Part shown: positions 39,647 to 51,276 of the stretch, one piece after another
Layout of the letters: every line of letters starts with the position of its first letter
How positions within the stretch are numbered: position 1 is the stretch's first letter
Assembly (NCBI GenBank): GCA_026692845.1
Contig: JAPLNM010000034.1
Location: forward strand, 62,001-126,000
Source of the DNA: Planctomycetota bacterium
Lineage (GTDB): Bacteria > Planctomycetota > Planctomycetia > Pirellulales > Pirellulaceae
Reading direction: 5' to 3'
Length of the DNA stretch: 64,000 nucleotides
Notes under the pieces: model-generated
Databases searched by the model: none
What the model saw: only the letters and a program-made list of their open reading frames with translations
Told to the model about the DNA's origin: nothing
Program-made: the position numbers and the translations under genes

Positions 39647-40470
39647 CGCGATAATCCTTTGATAGCATTCCAATCGATCCAATAAGACCGAGACTTACGT
39701 AGATCTAGGGATCGGAAGGGTGCGGTTGTAGGGATTAGGCAAACTTGGCCGATTTTTTCGGTTAAGTGGGATTTTCAGCGCTGGCGCGATCGAATCTGTT
39801 GCAAATCGCTCACAGTTTCCCGTTTATCGATCGATTCACGGCTCCGTTTTTTCCGAGCCAAACAAGTCGCTCAAGGTAACCTGTTTGGTCACGAGTTGTT
39901 CGGAGTATCGATTGGCTGTGACTCCGTAGGGGGTGATCATGGTTAGAAAGAGCGTTTGGTGTCGGCCTGAACATTCGCGGAAGACACGGATTTTTCGAGC
40001 TAGCGACTCGACTGACAGCGATTTGCTCCCCTGGCTGTTTCCTTTGCGTCCTTTGCGCCTTTGCGAGAGACTCTTCAGCCCTGTCGCCAACCAACACCGC
40101 CAAGAAGAGGTTTCTCGCCAAGGCGCCAAGCTCGCAAAGGATCGGACCCTGTCGGTAGTGGATCTTGCCGTAGCGTCGGTGAAGCGACTTTGCCGCGCAA
40201 CCCCCTGTTTCCATTGAGAAAACAACGCTGTTTTGCAGTGAATAGGGCACGATTCGAACTATCTGTGTGATGTTTTGAATCGCGGGAACTGCGAGAATAG
40301 CGCAAGAGCGCCAATCGCCCAACCTAAAAGTTGCCACGCCCTTCGGCATCCGGTATCGTTATGGAAATACGACGGACGGCTCGATTGATAAGCTGCATAG
40401 TGGAAATGCCTACAAGTTTTAGATCGTTCCGCCTTGGTCTAGGTTCTGCTTCAAAAACGTGAGTAACGCC
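39647..40470. other. Long intergenic region with repeat element R2
   Basis: No gene is supported. The only long frame, 39810-40349 on the minus strand, is read through a dispersed repeat and has no protein character. Apart from R2 copy 1 nothing else was recognised. Confidence 0.6.
40013..40146. repeat. Dispersed repeat R2, copy 1
   Basis: The core CTGGCTGTTTCCTTTGCG, then TCCTTTGCGCCTTTGCG, is shared with 46711-46826 and 51124-51192. Here an inverted counterpart (GGCGCCAAGCTCGCAAAGGA at 40122-40141) follows the core, so the copy can fold on itself. Confidence 0.85.
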
Positions 40471-43395
40471 ATGGATTCCTTGATCTCTCCAAGACTACTC
40501 TTTCGGTCGATTGGGATTTTTCTAATCATCATAGCGGTCATAGCGGTCTGGGTTGCTGTGGCGGCAGCACAGGGGCTTCCAGCAGAAGACGTGCCTGATT
40601 AGATACGAGGGCACGGTGAAGAACTTGAACTTCGACTCTCAGGGGAAGTCACCCGCAATGACGGTGAAAATGTCGATGGGGCTCAACTCCAGGTTAAGAT
40701 CAACTACGACAATCGAAGCTTCGAATCATTCGATCTCAAACTCGATAGCCAGAGATTCCAGGTATGGCTACCAGTCAATAAGTACCCTTGGTACAGCATC
40801 ACCGTGAGTGCAACGTGCCGCGATGGGGCACGTTGCACAAAAGCGATTGTTCGGCACGAACTCAGAGAACTCGTTGTTAATGGCATGAATCTGACAGTCC
40901 AACTCCCAAATCGACCGGTGACAGTTCGTGTAGAACATGATGGGAACGAAGTTGCCAATGCGACTGTCCAGGCCGTACTCTCCAATGCTCAAACGCTGAA
41001 ATTCAAGACCAACGAAAATGGACTTGCAAGGTTGAATCTGCTTGATGAAGAGAAACTATCGCAATTTACCGCATGGTCGCAAAATCAACTTATCGGGGGA
41101 TATCAATTTTTCCAAACACCAGTTCGCGATCCGCGAGCCAATTCGCATGTCATCTCGATGTACCAGTGCCGACCGTTTGAAGTCCACTTGAAAGACGCAA
41201 AAGGTCAGCCGATCGCTGGAGTCGAACTCGATTTGTTTGTTGCGACACCCAGCCCTGATTACAACTACCTTGGTTGGCCCGAGGATTTCAAAGTCGCAAC
41301 AAATCAAGAAGGCGTCGCCACCGTCGCTTGGTACCCGGACATGCAGGCTGCCCATTGCTATGCTGAAATATCGGACAAGCTTTGGATCATAGAATCCAGC
41401 CAGCTTGGTAGAGACAAGCTCGATGTGATTGCCAGACGTGCTGTCGAACGGAAAAAGATATCTGGCCACGTAATTGGAGATAGCAAATTCGCAGGTGGGT
41501 TCAGTGTCAAGTTGGGGAGCTTTCAGGCTGAACAGGAGGACAAAATCGATTATGTCTACAGCTTTTCCGATGCGGATGGAAACTTTTCCGCAGACGTACT
41601 TCCGGACGCAACGTATGCCGTTTTTTTGGAAGACAACAAGTGGGTAGCCAATGCGATCGACTCCATTCCCTTTGAGTCGAAGACTCAGCAGGGAAATCCT
41701 CTAGAGCTGTTTCTATCACCTGGTATCCCGGTCCGCATTACCTTGACCCAAGGAAGCAATCGCAATCCAATTTCACACGCCTGGGTCAACATTCAATCCC
41801 GCCACGAAATCAATTGGCATGAGGATGGTCGAGCGCAATCCGGATCGCTCGGCCGAGATACGAACGCCTATTCTAATTACACAGGGGTCATTGAGATACT
41901 GGTACCGGAAGGAGAGCTTCAAGCCAGTGTGTACCTACCTGACTGGCAAGCAAACCAAAAGATCGACGTGCGACGCGGGGGAAGCAACGAGATTCAATTT
42001 CACCGGAAAGTAGATCAGCGGGTCGAAGTCACCGGTAAGATCGTTCCGTGGAAAAAAGATCAGCAGCAAATCGCAGGTGCAACTTTGCACATCCGAGCGA
42101 TTGATGGTGAATCTGCCGATGAATTCCGATTCGTGGCAGACGAAGAAGGAAGCTTCCGAATCGAGACGAATGCAGCGAAACTTGGTGCCATTGCATACTC
42201 AGCAGATAAACGCTTCGGCGGCGCTTTGGTGATCAAGGAGTTCGCCAAACCCGCGCGTATTGAACTCCATCCCACGAAAAGCTTTTCCGGAAAAATCATC
42301 GACCAAGATGGCAATCCGGTTGCTAATCATTTGGTATGGGCCTCAATCTCAATTGAAGACGAACAGAAATCTGAAACCACTTTTCCGACGACCTTTTACC
42401 TACCGCGAATTGAGAGTCAAACCGACTCAGAGGGAAACTACCGATTCGATGGCTTACCCTGCCAGACCAGAATTCGGCTTGATACGAACACGTTGGAAAA
42501 TGATTCAAATCGCTCTGGATCCATCGACGAGGTTTACTATTTGCCTAATGACGAGCCTCGCAGTCAAGTCACGAAGATCGGTAAATCCACCAGCCGCAAC
42601 AAATCGCTTCTCCTGGCTGAGAGATTTGCATCGATGCTTCGTGACGCTCGTCTTGGCAGCTACCATTTAATGGTAATCAACTATGACAAATCAGAGGAGC
42701 CAAGCCGCGAGTTTGTCAATAAGTATCTGCTCGATTACTCGGAGCACATGGCAGTCGCTAGCTACATGCAACTTCCGGTCGACATCAAAGAATTATCAGA
42801 GGGGGAAAACAAGGCCTTAATCGATAGACTCGATTGGTCGAAGACAACCCAAGGCGTGTTCGTTTGTGCTTATGACATGGAGGGAACGGAGTTGGGGCGA
42901 ATCCGCATCGATCCACAGGCTCCCGATGCCGCAGTTGCCGCTTACCAATTCATCGAACGACATGGGCCAGCCCAACAGGACGCAGAAGCGAAATGGAACA
43001 ACGCTTTTCAGCAAGCGAAAGAGCAGAGCAAACACGTTTGGGTCAGAATAGGTGGACGATACTGTGGCCCTTGCTTTAAGCTAAGCAGGTGGATCGACGA
43101 TCATCGCGAGATTCTCGAGAAGGATTTTATTCTTCTTAAGATCGACAATGTCCGTGACTTGCATGGCAAGGCCATCGCCGAGCGATTGACGAAGGGGCGA
43201 TCGGTTGGAATCCCATTTCACGCAATTTTCGATGCGAATGAAAAACTGGTTGCCGACAGCTATGGTCCATTAGGCAACATCGGCTCTATTTCTGGACTAG
43301 AAGGAAAGCGGCATTTCAAGACGATGCTCGACGCGGGATGTTCCAAAATGACTCCGCAGGAGATTCAAATGTTGCTCGATTCCCTGAAAGACTAG
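40471..43395 (+). pseudogene. Secreted carboxypeptidase-regulatory/thioredoxin protein with in-frame TAG
   Basis: ATG 40471 starts a good signal or anchor peptide (RSIGIFLIIIAVIAVWVAVA, then AAAQGLPAEDVPD), interrupted by TAG at 40600-40602. The same frame then continues as clear protein (EELELRLSGEVTRNDGENVD) through to 43395, so the gene is one unit of about 974 codons with a single nonsense codon. The body has several carboxypeptidase-regulatory-like beta-sandwiches ('HLKDAKGQPIAGVELDLF', 'FSGKIIDQDGNPVANHLVWA'). The C-terminus, from about 42985, is a thioredoxin fold with CGPC encoded at 43063-43074. As drawn, the mature part could only be made from an internal start such as ATG 40888, without export. 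The TAG could be a real mutation or a sequencing error. Confidence 0.82.
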
Positions 43396-43542
43396 AAGTC
43401 AAAACCAAATCGGCCCCCTACGACGCTGCGTTTAGACTCCAGTAAGTAAAGAATCCCGGCCCGAAAAAAAACGACTTAGCCTGTGTACAATGCCTGTCTT
43501 GGTTGTTCACTTATTCCAATCCTCTTTCTAACCCAAATCCGC

Positions 43543-43899
43543 ATGGCCGATATCACCCGTCACGGTACGACACCCCGCTGGTCAGACCTCGTCATGCATC
43601 GTGGGATCGCTTACTTTGTTGAAGTCCCAGAGGACCCGCAACTCGAACCACGGGCGCAATTTGAGCAACTCTTTCGTCAGGTCGACGAGCGTCTCGCCTT
43701 GGCAAAGAGTTCGCGCAAGGCACTCTTGCAAGTCTTGATCTACCTTCCATTCCCAGAAGACCTCACGGTCTTCAACGAACTATGGGATGCGTGGATCCCA
43801 AGCGGTCATGCGCCGAGTCGCGCATGTATTCATACTCAACTAGCAGCACCAGGATACCGAGCCGAACTGATCATTACGGCCGCATGCGATGCGCCTTAG
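43543..43899 (+). CDS. RidA/YjgF-family protein
   Basis: About 118 residues from ATG 43543 (MADITRHGTTPRWSDLVMHR). Family text includes 'RWSDLVMHRGIAYFVEVPED', 'QFEQLFRQVDERLALAKSSR', 'LLQVLIYLPF' and the closing 'RACIHTQLAAPGYRAELIIT', which holds the conserved Arg that binds the substrate carboxylate. RidA members deaminate reactive imine/enamine intermediates; several related groups have other roles. The frame is open 20 codons further upstream, to 43483, but without similarity. A 16-bp duplication (GCGCCTTAGATGCAAC) spans the stop codon. The next gene is convergent. Confidence 0.86.
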   Translation: MADITRHGTTPRWSDLVMHRGIAYFVEVPEDPQLEPRAQFEQLFRQVDERLALAKSSRKALLQVLIYLPFPEDLTVFNELWDAWIPSGHAPSRACIHTQLAAPGYRAELIITAACDAP

Positions 43900-44042
43900 A
43901 TGCAACGCGCCTTAGATGCAACACCATTCGGCTTCACAACGCGAACTAGCGTCGTGGTGCTTGCCGCCGATCCGGGCTCCCCATCAAGTTTAGCAACTTC
44001 GACTACCATCGTTGAGGGGCATCGGACCCAGACGCTAAAGAG

Positions 44043-45284
44043 CTATGGATCGACAGCAGACGCCCGCTCCAGGTGCTCGGTACTCACAACACAGTCCCGA
44101 TCGTCGAACAAGTTGAAGTACCAGACCGTGGCATCCGGGGGGATTTCTGCAGAAACTTTGTCGTCTTGAATTTTGGCAGCAAGAGATTCCCACTTGCGGT
44201 CCTGCCATTTCCCCAAATCCTTGGTGAAGCACAACTCGGCCTTCGCGATTTTCACTTCGCTTCGATAGCGTGCTGATGCGTTGCGTTCATCGAGATGGAC
44301 ATCTTCGAATGCAGGAAATGGTGCGCCACCGGCAAGGATCGAATTCATAAAGACATGAATCTCCTCCGGGTTCTCACCAGCCACCCCATGTCCATGTGGC
44401 ATGCGAATCCTTAAACTCAGCGTCGATGGATTGTGGAGCCGCGCCGATCGTTGCCATGAATCCATAGGATACGCGAAATCATTCGTCCCGTTGACCCAAA
44501 GCATCGGGATCTTCGTCTTTGGAAGGTAAACCGAGGGATCCCAACGATTGAGCCACTTCTCGGCGCGCTGCTTTCCGATCGATTCGAGGGTTGGCGTCCA
44601 TACCGAGTTTTTTCCGAGAAACCCGCATCCATAAACGGGAACAGCGCACCGAAATCGATCATCGACCCCAGCGACAAGGCAGGTCAAATAACCTCCCCAG
44701 GAAATCCCGGTCACTCCGACGCGATCGGCGTCGACTTCGGGTAGCGATCGCAACAGGGAATGCGCAAGCACTACCGCAGAGACTGCATGGGTTTGCCATT
44801 GGTCTTCGACCGGTTCATCGATTTGCGCAAAACTCGCATCCCAACCCGGTGGGCCACCCTCGGGATGCCGCTGCCAGTTGCCATAAGTTCCCACCGGGAC
44901 ACAACCGCAGACATCCATGGCGATGGCTGCGTAGCCGCGGTCGTTCCATAGCTTGACCCAATTTGCGAACGCCGTGCCACCACCTCCGTGGATCAAAACA
45001 ACTCCCGGAACCTTTTCGGCCCGTTGCGCTTGTGAATTACGACTTGGAAGTCCGTAGTACGCGAAGACCTTCGTCGGCTTGCCTCGATAAGGGACCCCCT
45101 CAAAGAATATCGCATGGACACCTTCCGATGGGATGTCGACTGCAGGCAAAGCCGCTGGTGGTTTCGATAATCGTTGGAGATCGAAGATCGCCTCACGAGA
45201 GTCGCTGGCGATTTGGGCCACCAAGGGAAACGAAGTCACAATCCATAACGCGCACGCAACGAGGAAACGCACTAGGGTGCACAT
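44043..45284 (-). CDS. Secreted alpha/beta hydrolase (acetylxylan-esterase-like)
   Basis: About 413 residues from ATG 45284, which has a GGAGG ribosome binding site 11 bases before it; an earlier ATG at 45344 lacks one. A signal peptide (LVRFLVACALWIVTSFPLVA) is followed by an alpha/beta-hydrolase fold with 'PGVVLIHGGGGTAF' (oxyanion region), nucleophile elbow GISWGG, acid in 'NGTNDFAYP' and His in 'MPHGHGVAG'. The closest look is to the acetylxylan esterase/S9-like group used on plant or algal polysaccharide. The last 90 residues form a separate, beta-rich part. The substrate is inferred only. Confidence 0.86.
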   Translation of the reverse strand: MCTLVRFLVACALWIVTSFPLVAQIASDSREAIFDLQRLSKPPAALPAVDIPSEGVHAIFFEGVPYRGKPTKVFAYYGLPSRNSQAQRAEKVPGVVLIHGGGGTAFANWVKLWNDRGYAAIAMDVCGCVPVGTYGNWQRHPEGGPPGWDASFAQIDEPVEDQWQTHAVSAVVLAHSLLRSLPEVDADRVGVTGISWGGYLTCLVAGVDDRFRCAVPVYGCGFLGKNSVWTPTLESIGKQRAEKWLNRWDPSVYLPKTKIPMLWVNGTNDFAYPMDSWQRSARLHNPSTLSLRIRMPHGHGVAGENPEEIHVFMNSILAGGAPFPAFEDVHLDERNASARYRSEVKIAKAELCFTKDLGKWQDRKWESLAAKIQDDKVSAEIPPDATVWYFNLFDDRDCVVSTEHLERASAVDP

Positions 45285-45584
45285 GGAAACGAGCCTCCGA
45301 ACTTGGACTACGGGAAGGATGCTAGGGGACTGATTGCTCGGCATCGGTTAGCTACGAATTGCACGAATGGTTGCACGTATGGTTGAACCATTTCTATTGT
45401 ACTATAGATAGAGCAGGTATTTCGTCTCTCTTGATGCCTACCGTCGGAATTGTCCGGCCGAGGTATTCTTCCACCCCATGGCCGCGACGCGAACGTATAT
45501 CAGTTCGGTCTAGACAGAGACCTACACGTGAAATCACATTTCGAATTAATTGGGAGTAGCTGCTAGGTAAATTGCCGCATGCCA

Positions 45585-46163
45585 TCAACGGATTTCGTCG
45601 GATCCGCTCAGGACCTCATCAAGCAATTCATTCAGCTGGATCTTTTCAGCTTGGGCGCGAATGTCAGCTTGCTGTCGTTCGGAGGCATTCCGAAAGATGC
45701 TGCGAAAGTCGCGACGGCTGCGATGGCTTCCTTTTTCGATCCAGATGAGTTTCGAGATTGCGGCATCGGTGCGAGATACGACCGGCAGGAAAATCCCAGC
45801 AAACAATTCCATGATCTGAGACCGCTGCAACTCACCAGGTATCAATTCCCTGGGGTAGATGTCCAGTTTTAAGCTTTCCGTCTTGTCCAATAGCTGGAAC
45901 AGACTGCCGGACTGAATCGCCTGCCGTAGGACCCGCTCAGTGAATAAAAAGTCGGAGCTAGCTAGTTGGTCAATCAGGTCTTCGATGCGAATCCTTGCCA
46001 CATCGGGAGATACAACGATATCGATGTCTTGCGTCAAGCGAGGCTCGCCATAGGCCGAACTGATCGAGCCCCCAGTAATGTGAAAAGGAAGACCAATCGC
46101 CTCGGCTATTGCCACAAACTTGCCGATCGTCTTTTGAAAAGCTTCAACGGGAAACATTGGCAA
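45585..46163 (-). CDS. Nucleotidyltransferase-fold protein (AbiEii/DUF6036-like)
   Basis: 192 residues. Residues 25-50 read 'GLPFHITGGSISSAYGEPRL' then 'TQDIDIVV': the GG/GS and DxD signature of polymerase-beta-fold nucleotidyltransferases. The rest ('ESLKLDIYPRELIP', 'VVSRTDAAISKLIWIEKG') follows the AbiEii/DUF6036 pattern, with a conserved Lys/Leu helix ahead of a polar C-terminal helix. Relatives act as toxins that modify tRNA or other targets, or are uncharacterised. Its start codon overlaps the 3' end of a small upstream gene by 20 bp, the arrangement of two-gene toxin-antitoxin-like units. Confidence 0.82.
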   Translation of the reverse strand: MPMFPVEAFQKTIGKFVAIAEAIGLPFHITGGSISSAYGEPRLTQDIDIVVSPDVARIRIEDLIDQLASSDFLFTERVLRQAIQSGSLFQLLDKTESLKLDIYPRELIPGELQRSQIMELFAGIFLPVVSRTDAAISKLIWIEKGSHRSRRDFRSIFRNASERQQADIRAQAEKIQLNELLDEVLSGSDEIR

Positions 46164-46389
46164 GCTGTTCCTGGATCAGTCTGACCACTTCTGGGTCGCG
46201 CTCGTAAAGCTGCAAAGCTACATGCAACCTCACCTCTTCGTCCGACAGACTAGGCTGAGTGTTTCGAATCCGAATGGCGATTTGCTGACGAGTCCAGGCA
46301 AACATCGCGGCGCTTCGAGCTAACTTCTCTGCCGGAGACATCGCTTTCCAGCGACGTTCGTATTCAAGTTCGATTTCGGACTGTTCCAC
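46144..46389 (-). CDS. Small partner of the nucleotidyltransferase (antitoxin-like)
   Basis: 81 residues, highly charged and helical: 'RRWKAMSPAEKLARSAAMFA', 'WTRQQIAIRIRNTQPSLSDE', 'VRLHVALQLYERDPEVVRL'. The 'MSPAEKL...W......IR...P.LSDEEVR' pattern is one I associate with short proteins encoded directly before AbiEii-like nucleotidyltransferases. It overlaps that gene by 20 bp, so translation is probably coupled. It carries no DNA-binding motif that I can see. Antitoxin function is inferred from context. Confidence 0.75.
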   Translation of the reverse strand: MEQSEIELEYERRWKAMSPAEKLARSAAMFAWTRQQIAIRIRNTQPSLSDEEVRLHVALQLYERDPEVVRLIQEQLANVSR

Positions 46390-46612
46390 CCCGGTCTCCT
46401 CAATGCAATTATCTATTGGTCAGTATACGGCAACGCGCTAAAAGGACAAAGTACCGATGTTTTGCGCAATCGATGACTGCTTTCGAACTCTTTAAAATCA
46501 TTGGGAAAATATGCAAAAAGTTCGGTTCCTGTCCTCTCCGCTAAAAAACCCTGGTTTTCCCAAGGTTTTTCGCATATTGGGCCAATTGCTTTGGCCGATC
46601 CGCTGCCAAGTC

Positions 46613-46681
46613 GTAGCCATCCGCTGCCAAGCGGTGGTGCGGCGGGAGTAAAGCCTCCACCGTCTGGCGACAGGTGGCTAC
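46613..46681. repeat. Dispersed inverted repeat R1, copy 1
   Basis: GTAGCCATCCGCTGCCAAGC at one end and GGCGACAGGTGGCTAC at the other pair imperfectly, with internal GCGGTGG/CCACCGTC arms. The same unit occurs twice at 50836-51010. A truncated piece (CGCTGCCAAGTC) precedes it. Confidence 0.85.
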
Positions 46682-46710
46682 GTGCGTACGTGTTTGTCCT
46701 TACCTATGAG

Positions 46711-46826
46711 CGACCGCAAAAGGCGCCAAGCTCGCCGAAGGATCGGAACCAGAGCCTATCGATCACTGGCAGCGATTTTCTCCCTTGGCTGTTTCCTTTG
46801 CGTCCTTTGCGCCTTTGCGGTGAGAC
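46711..46826. repeat. Dispersed repeat R2, copy 2
   Basis: It carries GCGCCAAGCTCGCCGAAGGA followed by GATCACTGGCAGCG and the TCCTTTGCG core, ending in GCCTTTGCGGTGAGAC. The inverted counterpart stands before the core here, the reverse of copy 1. Confidence 0.85.
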
Positions 46827-46948: not shown

Positions 46949-48571
46949 TCAGTTTGACGGCCATCGGGTATTGACCAAGCATCCGCCGAGCGGTCCGCGA
47001 TCGATTTGCACCGATCCCCCGTGCTGTTGTAGGATTCGATTGACAATCGCTAGACCCAACCCTAGCCCCGAGTGGGACGACGCTTGCTCCTCGTCTTGCG
47101 ATCCAGGATCGATTCGTACGAACGGTTTCATCACCTCGCTACGAAAATTCCCCGGGATACCCGGTCCATCATCCTCAACATCGACGCAAACGAATCGATG
47201 GCTCTCTCCATGCGAATCCAACTCCTTGCTCTCGGAAACATGGATTCGCACCGTCGACTCCTCGTAACGCGCCGCATTGGAGGTTAGATTGACAAAGACT
47301 CGCTGAAAGGATCGACGATCTGCAAGTACTTTTATGCTCGGATCTCTACCCGCAAAAACCATCTCAACTTGCAACTGTGGATAGTCGATTCGCAACGCTC
47401 TTAGGATGCCTTCCAAGGCAAGGTTAATCGTGATGACTTCTTTGGACTGGAGTGGTTCAGCTTGCTCGATTCGAACATAGAAAAGAATCTCCTGCACAAT
47501 CGCTTCGATGTCATCGATGGACTGGCGCATCACCAATCCTGGAGAATCAAGCCCGTGATCGATCTGCGATCGAGGAACAAGAGCCGCAGCGAATTTTAAC
47601 CGTGATAACGGAGTTCGAAGCTCGTGGGAGACGACCTGCAAGAGCTCTTTTTGCGTTCGAATGACGCTCTCGGTCTTCGATGCCATCGTATTGAACGCCA
47701 CGGCCAGTTTGGTAGCTTCTCCGAGTTTCGTCGCATCGACCCTGGCGCTGAAATTCCCGTCTGCAATCTCCACGGCCGCATTCTCGATCTTCCGAAACCT
47801 CAACGAGACTTTAATGATCATCCAGGCAAGAACAGCCAAAGCCACCAATAACCAGCCGAGAATCCCATACCCTGCAGCGACCTGAGCATAATTGGTAACC
47901 TCCAGCAGCGGCCCCAAGCAAAGCACTTGACTTGAATCCCTGAGTTCAAGGGCAACAAAACTACCAACATCCGTCTGATAGAAGACACTCTCGTGGTAAT
48001 CCGTGAGCTTTTCGGAGACTTTACCGGGTAAGCTCTCTCGCTGTTCTATGCGAATCGGGACTCGTAACAGACTTGAGTATTTACTGATGGTTGCCTGGGC
48101 ATCTCCGGAGGATTCCAACGCGTCACGAACGCCCTTGAGCCTGCTATCGACCTGAAGCTCGATGAATCGATTGGTCAACCGACCAATCGGACCGCAAAGC
48201 AGGTAGTGGTCATCGCTAAGCGGTACGCCTAGAAAGTCGATCATGCCGTCGGCATAACGAACGATAAATCCATCAGATTTTCTTAGACGCGACTGCTCGG
48301 ACTCAGCAAGCTCACTGATGGGGAGAATCGCAAGGGGACCGACGCTCTGTTTACCCAGCTCAGCAAGTTTGTTTCCTTGCTCTTGCGGTGGGCAAGCAAC
48401 AAGTTGATCCGCAAGGAAATGAAGCTCATCGAGGTGAACTTGCAATAAACCTGCGATCACCCGATTGCGGTCCGAATAGACTTCACGAAATAGTATTACT
48501 TCAACAGTCCACTTGATCGATAAAACAACACACAAAAAAACGATAACAACCTGAATATAGAATCGAATCAT
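46949..48571 (-). CDS. Sensor histidine kinase
   Basis: 540 residues. TM1 lies at about 5-27 and TM2 near 240-262, enclosing a sensor region of about 210 residues with no family I recognise. HAMP follows ('FRKIENAAVEIADGNFSARV'), then the H-box 'VSHELRTPLSRLKFAAALV' with the phospho-accepting His, an N-box ('FVNLTSNAARYEE', Asn replaced by a close variant of the usual NLLxNA), and G-boxes VEDDGPGIPG and GLGLGLAIVNRI. It phosphorylates the response regulator upstream, overlapping it by 4 bp (ATGA). The layout recalls RstB. The signal is unknown. Confidence 0.94.
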   Translation of the reverse strand: MIRFYIQVVIVFLCVVLSIKWTVEVILFREVYSDRNRVIAGLLQVHLDELHFLADQLVACPPQEQGNKLAELGKQSVGPLAILPISELAESEQSRLRKSDGFIVRYADGMIDFLGVPLSDDHYLLCGPIGRLTNRFIELQVDSRLKGVRDALESSGDAQATISKYSSLLRVPIRIEQRESLPGKVSEKLTDYHESVFYQTDVGSFVALELRDSSQVLCLGPLLEVTNYAQVAAGYGILGWLLVALAVLAWMIIKVSLRFRKIENAAVEIADGNFSARVDATKLGEATKLAVAFNTMASKTESVIRTQKELLQVVSHELRTPLSRLKFAAALVPRSQIDHGLDSPGLVMRQSIDDIEAIVQEILFYVRIEQAEPLQSKEVITINLALEGILRALRIDYPQLQVEMVFAGRDPSIKVLADRRSFQRVFVNLTSNAARYEESTVRIHVSESKELDSHGESHRFVCVDVEDDGPGIPGNFRSEVMKPFVRIDPGSQDEEQASSHSGLGLGLAIVNRILQQHGGSVQIDRGPLGGCLVNTRWPSN

Positions 48572-49257
48572 AGGTTATCCGACAGCATATAGCCATCTCC
48601 ATAGACCGACATGAGCCTCACAGGATTTTTAGCATCCGCCTCGATCTTTCGTCTAAGTCGCAACACATGCATATCGACAGAACGATCCCCGAAATCGTAC
48701 GATTCGCTCGTATGCAATCGGTTGAACAGTTTCTCGCGACTCGTCAGCTTGTTTTTGTTTCTAGCCAGAATCACCAGGATATCAAACTCCGCATTCGTGA
48801 GCTTGATCGGCTTACCGTGCAACTCCAGCAACCTACTTTCAAGGTGAATGACCAAATCGCCTACTTCGAGGACCTCTTGCGTGCCCTGTGCATTGTTGCC
48901 GTAGCGGCGCAGATGAAGTTTCAACCGAGTGACCAGCGCCATCGGCCGCACAGGCTTGGATAAAAAATCGTCGGCCCCAACCTCCAAACCGAGCACTTCG
49001 TCGAGTTCTTCATTGCGGGCGGTCAAGATGAGGATCGCACCCTGATAATAGGGCCGTACCTGCCGACAGATGGTAAAACCGTTCGATCCTGGCAAATTGA
49101 TATCAAGCACCACCGCATCGGGTTGGATACCAAGGATTCGATCGACCGCTCGATCGCCATGCCCTTCGATTTCAACGCGGAAGTCGTTCTCCTGCAGACA
49201 CGCCCGCATGATCTTGGCAAGCTTCAAATCATCTTCGACCAATAGTACCGTCTGCAT
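48568..49257 (-). CDS. OmpR-family response regulator (RstA-like)
   Basis: About 229 residues from ATG 49257 (MQTVLLVEDDLKLAKIM), not the longer frame to 49335. The receiver domain has the acidic pair EDD, phospho-acceptor Asp in 'DAVVLDINLPGSNG', Thr in 'LILTARNEELDEVLGLEVGA' and Lys in 'DDFLSKPVRP'. The winged-helix output follows from about 130 ('LTNAEFDILVILARNKNKLT', 'GDRSVDMHVLRLRRKIE', 'VYGDGYML'). OmpR-type outputs bind direct repeats one helical turn apart; exactly such repeats lie 186-370 bp upstream. It is cotranscribed with the sensor (4-bp overlap) and divergent from the PEP-CTERM gene. Confidence 0.95.
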   Translation of the reverse strand: MQTVLLVEDDLKLAKIMRACLQENDFRVEIEGHGDRAVDRILGIQPDAVVLDINLPGSNGFTICRQVRPYYQGAILILTARNEELDEVLGLEVGADDFLSKPVRPMALVTRLKLHLRRYGNNAQGTQEVLEVGDLVIHLESRLLELHGKPIKLTNAEFDILVILARNKNKLTSREKLFNRLHTSESYDFGDRSVDMHVLRLRRKIEADAKNPVRLMSVYGDGYMLSDNL

Positions 49258-49809
49258 TTCGATAGGTTGAGTGTCGGAGGCCTGTGAACTGGAGGGACGA
49301 GATCCAATGATACAACGAAACTCGTTACCGAACAAACAGGTGGCAACCGCCGCACGGGTGCCTGGGGTTTGCCTTCGAAGGAAAAATCTTTTGAAAATTC
49401 CTGTATTCGCTAAACTACATAATTAGCCATATAAGATTTTTAGTGACAATTCAGTGACAATTGCTTTGGCTAATAGGCAAACCTGCAAAACCCAATGATT
49501 TCGACAGTTTAGGCTTGTGACAATTCAGTGACAATTGCATTGGCTTATGCACCAGAGGCGGTTGCTCATTCTGCAAGCTCCCGATTCCTGCTTGCCAGGA
49601 TGCAATTGTCACAAACTTGTGACAATTGTTTTCTTGCAATACGCGTAACGATCGTTTTAATGGCGACGCGGTAAGGTACTCCTCGAAAAACCCGGTTCTC
49701 GAGGAGCACCGAACCGACGTGTAGACTGAGCTATGTTGCTCGGTTTTTCCCTTTTGTGTTGCGTACCGATGATTTGTTCTCTTTTGGCTAATTGCCACGG
49801 AGTAAAAGG
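49258..49809. promoter_or_regulatory. Divergent control region between response regulator and PEP-CTERM gene
   Basis: The 552-bp region has no ORF. It carries six GTGACAATT half-sites. At its right end CGGAG/AAAAGG precedes the ATG at 49810. Confidence 0.75.
49443..49627. promoter_or_regulatory. Array of six GTGACAATT half-sites
   Basis: Direct pairs start at 49443/49454 and 49517/49528, each 11 bp apart, lying within a 32-bp direct repeat (30 of 32 identical). A third pair is inverted: AATTGTCAC at 49604-49612 and GTGACAATT at 49619-49627. Pair spacing of 11 bp fits OmpR-type regulators; the inverted pair also resembles a CRP/FNR-type site. Confidence 0.75.
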
Positions 49810-50789
49810 ATGAGACTTTTTTCACACGAGTTGCACTGGCACTCATGGTCGCCGGAACGGCTTACGCACCGAGCTACGCAGCGGTCGTTTCGTTCGGCTC
49901 TGGTGGTAACCAGTTCAACATGGAGTTTGTTACGATCGGCAATCCAAATAATGCTGCCGATACCACGGGTACACCGAATCCTGCAGGTGCCGTGGGTTAC
50001 GAGTATGGGATTGGCAAGTTCGAAGTCAGCGAGGACATGATTACGAAGTTCAACGCTTCGCAATCACTGCAGATCACCCAGGACAACCGTGGCTCGGCCA
50101 AGCCCGCGACGAGTGTTTCTTGGAACAAAGCGGCGCGGTTCGTCAACTGGCTCAATACGAGCACTGGGAACCAAGCGGCCTATAAATTCACCACCAGCGG
50201 CGTCAATGACAACATCGCTTTGTGGGTATCTGGCGATGCCGGTTACGACGCATCGAATCCTTACCGCAACAGTTTGGCGAAGTACGTGTTGCCGAGCTAC
50301 AACGAGTGGTACAAGGCGGCTTATTACAACCCCACTGACAGCACCTACTACAACTTCGCAAACGGAAGTGACACGGCACCGACGGCGGTAACAAGCGGGA
50401 CGACCGCAGGCACGGCAGTTTACAAACAAAACTTTGACCAAGGCCCTGCGGACGTTACGCAAGCCGGTGGCTTGAGTCCTTATGGGGTGATGGGCCTAGG
50501 TGGCAACGTTTATGAATGGGAAGAGAGTTCTTTTGACCTTCTTAATAGTAGCGGTTCTTCTTCTCGGGGGTTCCGCGGCGGCAGCTGGCTCAACAACTCC
50601 AGCTTCCTGTCGTCGTCGGCTCGCTACGAACTACTCTACGGCCCTAGCCTCGAGTTCAACATCATAGGTTTTCGTGTCGCAAGTCTGTCTTCAGACGCCC
50701 CACCTGCAGTGCCTGAGCCGAGCATGATGGTGATAGGGACGCTGTTTGGTTTAGGGGGGCTTATGGCGAAGAGGCGGATGAAGAAGTAA
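49810..50789 (+). CDS. PEP-CTERM protein with formylglycine-enzyme-like domain (apparent frameshift in signal peptide)
   Basis: The clean frame begins only at 49845 (MVAGTAYAPSYA), mid-way through a signal peptide. ATG 49810 has a ribosome binding site. If the T6 run at 49817-49822 had one more T, the frame would read MRLFFTRVALALMVAGTAYA, a perfect signal peptide fused to the rest. The body is an FGE-sulfatase-type domain: 'YGIGKFEVSEDMITKFNA', 'WNKAARFVNWLNTSTG', 'LPSYNEWYKAAYYNP', 'GLGGNVYEWEES', 'RGFRGGSWLNN', 'GFRVAS'. The catalytic Cys of true FGE was not seen. The tail VPEPSMMVIGTLFGLGGLMA plus KRRMKK is a PEP-CTERM sorting signal for the exosortase system. It is divergent from the two-component system. 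Confidence 0.85.
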
Positions 50790-50835
50790 CCCTTTTTCCT
50801 TTTGGCTCTTTTCCCGTAGCCATCTGCTGCCAAGT

Positions 50836-51010
50836 GTAGCCATCGGCTGCCAAGCGGTGGACAGCGGCGCAAGTAACGCTTCCACCGTCTGGCGACAGGT
50901 GGCTACGTGCCGGAAACACGAATCATCTGCTGCGACCCGTAGCCATCGGCTGCCAAGCGGTGGACAAGCGGCGCAAGTAACGCTTCCACCGTTTGGCGAC
51001 AGGTGGCTAG
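50836..51010. repeat. Dispersed inverted repeat R1, copies 2 and 3 in tandem
   Basis: Two near-identical units lie at 50836-50906 and 50939-51010, each running from GTAGCCATCGGCTGCC to GGCGACAGGTGGCTA. A truncated start of a further unit precedes them at 50816. The arms of each can fold into a long imperfect hairpin. Confidence 0.88.
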
Positions 51011-51123
51011 TGCGACTTGAGTTCGCCGAAGGCGCCATTTCGTTTAACCCGCAGCCAACGGCGAGGGAACTTAAATAAGCCCCCCAGGATGCTGCGTATG
51101 GGGCCGAAAGGGAGGCGAGCCTA

Positions 51124-51192
51124 ACGATCACTGGCAGCGATGTGCTCCCTTGGCTGTTTCCTTTGCGACCTTTGCGCCTTTGCGGTGAGACT
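51124..51192. repeat. Dispersed repeat R2, copy 3
   Basis: It begins ACGATCACTGGCAGCG and carries the core GGCTGTTTCCTTTGCGACC followed by TTTGCGCCTTTGCGGTGAGAC, as in copy 2. Confidence 0.85.
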
Positions 51193-51276
51193 CACCCCCC
51201 CTCCCCCCCAGCCAAAGCCCTGGAGGCGCGGGGGGGCCAAGCGGTTTTGGGGGAGTTCGCTTGCAATCCAAACGAA

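Follow-up and report, generated by a model that had tools for sequence, protein, structure and literature searches.

The window (the whole stretch of 64,000 nucleotides of a Pirellulaceae contig that was analyzed) contains six exact copies of the sequence GTGACAATT at positions 49443–49627, in the intergenic region between two divergent genes, a response regulator gene on the left (strand minus) and a PEP-CTERM gene on the right. The question raised by this array is which protein would recognize it and which genes would be controlled from it. According to the comparison of related genomes, the array probably (about 70%) serves as an operator through which the adjacent two-component system regulates itself; the regulator of this system would have been duplicated, would have changed its recognition helix and half-site jointly and would belong to a module moving between species.

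Four of the copies form two direct pairs on the plus strand, namely, half-sites 1 (49443–49451) and 2 (49454–49462) and half-sites 3 (49517–49525) and 4 (49528–49536), with a start-to-start spacing of 11 bp in both pairs; half-site 1 reads AATTGTCAC on the regulator coding strand. Half-sites 5 (49604–49612, strand minus) and 6 (49619–49627, strand plus) are inverted relative to each other. The direct pairs lie within a 32-bp direct repeat, copy 1 of which (49443–49474) consists of the pair plus GCTTTGGCTAAT, while copy 2 (49517–49548) is 94% identical to it at an offset of 74 bp. A previous sequence-only reading had described this layout correctly in all its parts, and its remark that both direct pairs face the same side of the helix agrees with the 74-bp offset, which amounts to 7.05 turns if one turn is 10.5 bp. 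The offset between sites 4 and 6 is 91 bp, or 8.7 turns, and is out of phase. A scan for sigma-70 promoters gave two matches (0.7 expected), only on the minus strand, and the first hexamer in both is the TTGTCA of a half-site. In addition, a second short motif, approximately TTGGCTAAT, was noted partly by eye at positions 49421, 49466, 49540, and 49784, with three direct copies and one inverted.

Sites 5 and 6 are included in a 26-bp palindrome (49603–49628), the 12-bp arms of which match perfectly in the window around a centre of 2 bp. Matches to this palindrome with up to 3 mismatches were detected in 35 of 241 genomes, exact ones only in G000, G162, G170, G183, and G209. Sites 5 and 6 may form a hairpin in addition to, or in place of, a protein site. 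Were it a transcription terminator or RNA hairpin and not a protein site at all, the operators would be the two direct pairs only; this is rather unlikely, but its form as RNA speaks for it, i.e., a 12-bp stem with a loop of 4 followed by the T residues of TTTTCTT, at −25.4 kcal/mol (z −5.9). On the other hand, both arms are exact copies of a half-site that is used four more times directly, a base change between the half-sites in G162 breaks a stem pair and keeps both half-sites, only 4 pairs of the stem are G-C, and the element is located between divergent genes.

The gene to the left of the array (48568–49257, strand minus) encodes an OmpR/PhoB-type response regulator of 229 aa, counted from the ATG at 49257 (a longer TTG-started frame extends to 49335), with the recognition helix DRSVDMHVLRLRRK. 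Its stop overlaps by 4 bases with the gene of a sensor histidine kinase (46949–48571, strand minus) that has HAMP, HisKA, and HATPase_c domains. According to the Pfam analysis, the regulator has Response_reg (77 bits) and Trans_reg_C (69.9 bits) domains, both above the cut-offs and placing it in the OmpR/PhoB group, and the two 11-bp pairs would correspond to the direct-repeat operators of about one-turn spacing of this group. These two domains were the only Pfam matches at E up to 0.001, with nothing of a Fis-type, sigma-54-linked regulator such as PrsR. The PrsK/PrsR system resembles the locus in that a two-component system is proposed to control a PEP-CTERM gene, whereas the regulator there is of the Fis type and is tied to RpoN promoters (PMC9850573).

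The best match of the regulator among 88 NCBIfam families was RstA (NF007977; 176.7 bits, below the cut-off of 330), and the best match of the kinase likewise belonged to the RstA system. Similarity with the PhoB equivalog TIGR02154 was lower (147.1 bits, cut-off 296.2); the recognition helix of PhoB has a histidine, as does that of the regulator. As for solved structures, the DNA-binding domain was closest to the RstA domain 2naz and the whole protein to MtrA 2gwr. Thus, the name "RstA-like regulator" from the sequence-only reading holds as far as the best family model and the OmpR/PhoB domains are concerned, but the score is below the cut-off and the site resembles that of PhoB, not the RstA box.

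In the 5.24-Mb genome, GTGACAATT occurs 14 times on both strands, including the six copies in the array, against 20 to 42 copies expected (Markov order 1 to 3, window composition). The Poisson probability of six copies in a given 185-bp stretch is 2e-23 at the observed genome rate and 1e-16 after multiplication by the genome length. The tandem pair was not found anywhere else in the genome with up to 3 mismatches; therefore, the array is private to its locus rather than one site of many in a regulon with this pair. The previous reading had named the motif being equally common elsewhere as a refuting result; the scan did not refute its claim. None of the 8 remaining copies has a partner (up to 2 mismatches) 11 bp off, and a wider regulon for the tandem pair was ruled out by this restriction to the array. 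Seven of these solitary copies overlap stop-to-stop frames of 80 aa or more, and three of these frames exceed 400 aa; one copy (L166) is in no frame, and another (L164) is located just ahead of a likely start codon.

The tandem pair was searched for in 241 family genomes, including 27 from the same genus. Exact copies were found in five genomes (G000, G162, G170, G183, and G209) and in none of the other 236. Orthologues of the regulator, surveyed in 199 family genomes and in a different second collection, are present in all five genomes at an identity of at least 93%, although the gene of G183 is in two parts on separate contigs. As evidence to the contrary, pairs with one mismatch occur in two genomes without the orthologue: the pair of G020 is inside a long frame, that of G201 overlaps a frame end, and no regulator is among the frames listed nearby. 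Pairs with up to 2 mismatches were detected in 59 of 241 genomes. The operator of an 80%-identical regulator relative (L039, taken as G202 by its identical coordinates) was not found, the contig being cut inside the regulator. Separately, tandem pairs of the GTGACACTTCAGTGACA[CT]TT type are common to G190:C318, G178:C205, and G180:C2 from two genera and perhaps represent another tandem operator.

The kinase genes of the four relatives were compared with that of the window at fourfold sites. Identical sites comprised 225/253 in G170, 231/251 in G162, 228/250 in G183, and 170/229 in G209. For comparison genes (one or two per genome, taken from the window and not at random), the values were 313/477 for purL of G170, 88/184 for miaB and 132/331 for a PQQ-type protein of G162, 136/210 and, from a partial locus, 126/237 in G183, and 62/185 and 96/302 in G209. 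Since the kinase and regulator are far more alike between species than the comparison genes tested, horizontal exchange of both genes between species is suggested. Strong codon constraint instead of exchange is a minor possibility that draws on the choice of only one or two window genes per genome for comparison. However, the four relatives also share 82 to 94% identity with the window across the intergenic stretch 49260–49627, against 32 to 66% for fourfold sites of comparison genes, and the kinase of G202 is nearly as diverged (92/178) as the comparison genes (83/184 and 129/336), i.e., 0.52 vs. 0.45 and 0.38. The neighbourhoods of the module, which differ between genomes, also speak against codon constraint.

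Regarding these neighbourhoods, DNA homology ends no more than approximately 10 bases from the stop codon of the kinase gene in G162, G209, and G183 and approximately 200 bases past it in G170; towards the divergent gene, it extends to 49657 in G162 and to 49804 in G183, and the contigs of G209 and G170 end at 49629 and 50056, respectively. All genomes compared are metagenome assemblies, and some of these breaks may be artefacts. The purL side is common to the window and G170, whereas the module adjoins ompH-lpxC and an NhaD-like gene (Pfam citrate-transporter match) in G183 and a DUF1552 gene in G209. The ompH-lpxC place lacks the regulator in G000, G202, and G162 (frames were listed in three of seven genomes), but it is not a clean empty site, because NhaD was found there in none of the seven other genomes. 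A plasmid origin of the module was rejected, as a search of 72,556 plasmid records gave 0 matches (E 1e-5). The module is flanked by a dispersed repeat (40011–40089, 46598–46682, and 50817–51208) with one match in G170 (L175:3228-3534), which could aid rearrangement. In addition, an AbiEii-like nucleotidyltransferase match (45585–46163) is within approximately 6.7 kb (40010–46752) replaced by approximately 1.2 kb in G170.

In a phylogenetic tree of 46 regulators with the midpoint root, the window regulator and five relatives formed a clade nested inside the RstA-type regulators of Pirellulaceae at 100/99. The sister of this clade was L171, a paralogue from G183 with the canonical helix; both G162 and G183 carry the canonical and the window-clade regulators. 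The helix DRS[VI]DMHVLRLRRK is present in 6/6 window-clade proteins (the window regulator and L035–L039, with L038 supplying the helix of the cut G183 regulator), unlike the helix of their own Pirellulaceae relatives. Among the 60 distant matches in 199 genomes, one with an internal stop (G004) was left out; of the remaining 59 distant regulators, 57 have the helix DRS[IL]DLR[VI]SR[LV]R, with N as the first residue in one, and the helices of L020 and L242 were not read by the pattern. The two kinds of paralogues differ at three helix positions, L-R-x-S versus M-H-x-L. In Klebsiella RstA, the helix residues that contact bases are Arg199, Val203, and Arg207 (PMC4117788). Matched by spacing, with no alignment tool, Val203 would correspond to the L-to-M position, with both arginines retained; the changes from R to H and from S to L would adjoin these positions.

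The operators of the family were analyzed starting from the published RstA box TACANNNNNNTACA (PMC4117788). Among the 59 distant regulators, 11 are preceded by TACA/TGTA-N6 repeats at a distance of up to 300 bp, some of these 11 loci being close relatives of one another and not independent. Other spacers from 0 to 12 gave at most 2 loci, the reversed pattern gave 0 at the same spacing, and shuffled sequences gave 0.185 on average (maximum 2). The strict boxes read TGTA on the regulator strand in 9/11 loci, i.e., in the orientation of TGTCA in the window; at two mismatches, this was the case in 18/23. With the TGTAWC half-site at a 10-bp period and one mismatch, 15/59 loci were found (shuffles 0.3), a partly circular count, as some of these loci had contributed to the consensus. 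On the basis of the spacer, reversed-pattern, and shuffle controls, we propose a putative RstA-type box for Pirellulaceae. TGTA-type boxes have an 11-bp period in 6/59 loci (one mismatch); therefore, the letters of the half-site, and not its spacing, clearly differ between the family and the window.

TGTCA-N6-TGTCA was absent upstream of the distant RstA-type regulators, namely, in 0/59 (300 bp each), 0/26 loci, and 0/5 nearer ones. TGTCAC-N5-TGTCAC with two mismatches was found in 6/59 (shuffles: mean 1.0, maximum 2), three of which are alike and located by the start codon. In the window clade, two TGTCA-N6-TGTCA boxes are present on the regulator strand wherever the upstream DNA was assembled, and TACA-N6-TACA was not found upstream of the 5 window-clade genes scanned (600 bp at most, less at contig ends). 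Among the six canonical paralogues in the genus, L009, L010, L027, and L172 (from G162) have the strict TGTA box; no strict box was found upstream of L171 and L173, both from G183, which speaks against a joint switch, as does the presence of boxes at only a minority of the distant loci. The simplest interpretation is still that the helix and the operator changed jointly following a duplication.

Of the known systems, RstA of E. coli and Klebsiella is the best NCBIfam match and binds a direct-repeat operator head-to-tail, but its box is TACA-N6-TACA (PMC4117788) instead of TGTCA-N6-TGTCA. The Pho box is similar in letters and 11-bp period, and PhoB is also a winged-helix protein of the OmpR/PhoB type (PMC10294691); in contrast, the window regulator scores higher as RstA than as PhoB, and the window pair is restricted to one locus without a regulon. 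Operators of ArcA contain three to five direct repeats, mostly with 11-bp centre-to-centre spacing and one or two turns apart, in a global regulon (PMC3798270). More than two half-sites per operator are therefore not new in view of ArcA; the window differs in that its array, confined to one locus, combines two pairs offset by 74 bp with an inverted pair.

A different transcription factor, e.g., the PhoB of this genome, could bind the array, the adjacent regulator being merely a target. We regard this as improbable. The TGTCA-N6-TGTCA pattern is the core of the Pho box and resembles E. coli PhoB sites, including TGTCATAAAACTGTCATA and TGTCACATTCCTGTCAAT (PMC10294691). It occurs 7 times in the genome, 5 of them outside the array (3 for the reversed control). 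However, the exact pairs occur only alongside the regulator orthologue, no phosphate-uptake gene was recognized around the 5 other matches (frames read by eye), and the recognition helix is altered in the very same clade. As a separate observation, TGTCA-N6-TGTCA at G000:C95:16235-16250 and G241:C144:4944-4959 is located between seemingly the same divergent genes in two species and is possibly a conserved operator.

Conservation of the array was assessed in the alignment of five sequences, omitting 2 gapped columns. Only 1 of 54 half-site columns is variable, against 31/127 columns in the rest of the array (Fisher p 6e-5) and 74/181 in the regulator-side flank (p 1e-9). Half-site 1 is unchanged in 5/5 sequences; the variable column is in half-site 2, which reads ATGACAATT in G162/L036. 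No indels were found inside the array in this alignment. This conservation should weigh less than that of five independent lineages would, the copies in the relatives being young. A recent tandem duplication of unselected intergenic DNA, suggested by the 94% identity of the 32-bp repeats and the young copies, is very improbable, as the inverted pair is no full copy of the repeat (63%), the half-sites vary far less than the flank, and the spacing is free of indels.

The preferred reading, an autoregulatory operator, may then be described as follows. On both 11-bp pairs, which read TGTCA-N6-TGTCA on the regulator coding strand, the phosphorylated regulator would bind as a head-to-tail dimer, with a further dimer probably on the inverted pair; we infer that this binding would be cooperative. 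Once bound, the regulator would control the operon that encodes it as well as the promoter of the divergent gene for an exported protein. By origin, it would be a duplicated RstA-type protein of Pirellulaceae in which L-R-x-S of the helix was replaced with M-H-x-L, and the half-site would have changed in step from the family TGTAWC to TGTCAC. As a result, the duplicate would share no sites with its paralogues, and such insulation may have been the reason for the change. The kinase, regulator, and array would travel between Pirellula species as a single module.

To our knowledge, private DNA targets of duplicated regulators have been studied mostly through reconstruction and engineering. Extant paralogues in one genus that differ at three helix positions and, apparently, in the half-site are a likely natural example of a duplicate gaining a private target, and the recognition path from TGTATC to TGTCAC can be tested with few substitutions. 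In the partly covered literature, no description of a kinase–regulator–array module was found. Only tentatively, the system may be generalized as a duplicated, insulated RstA-type system with a new helix and operator that spreads as a kinase–regulator–operator cassette with a constant promoter and exchangeable outputs, namely, exported proteins of the PEP-CTERM or another type.

The outputs depend on the divergent gene (49845–50789, strand plus), which has an FGE-sulfatase-like body and a PEP-CTERM tail; its likely start codon, at 49810, is in a different frame from the body. A possible promoter, TTGCAA-N16-TTTAAT (49634–49661, strand plus), was noted by eye and is not among the sites of the sigma-70 scan. 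The start of a similar gene is present in G170 (84% over 437 bases of DNA), in frame, and the 114-aa fragment there has no Pfam match. In G183, the promoter region and the DNA of the PEP-CTERM tail are kept (90% over 130 bases), while the body between them is unlike and has no Pfam match. The sequence of G162 diverges just past the presumed promoter into another frame, by eye that of an exported protein.

The sequence-only reading had proposed both autoregulation and control of the PEP-CTERM gene by the two-component system. The former is the best reading of the array and would fit its head-to-tail layout, the locus-unique pair, the co-occurrence with the regulator, and the near-invariant half-sites. 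Control of the PEP-CTERM gene is the weaker part, with the array facing another gene in G183 and G162 and the start codon out of frame in the window. Because different genes follow the promoter in different species, autoregulation would be the conserved relation; output control is plausible but changes its partner.

The frame break at 49810–49845 is located at a T run and may represent an assembly error, decay, or slippage; the copy in G170 (L035) is in frame. The genus has multiple copies of FGE-sulfatase-like PEP-CTERM genes, with DNA matches in 10/27 genomes (window 49845–50789; G000:C89:70331-71292; L139–L162), including 12 in G183, some of them tail-only. The PEP-CTERM tail DNA is common to genes with different bodies.
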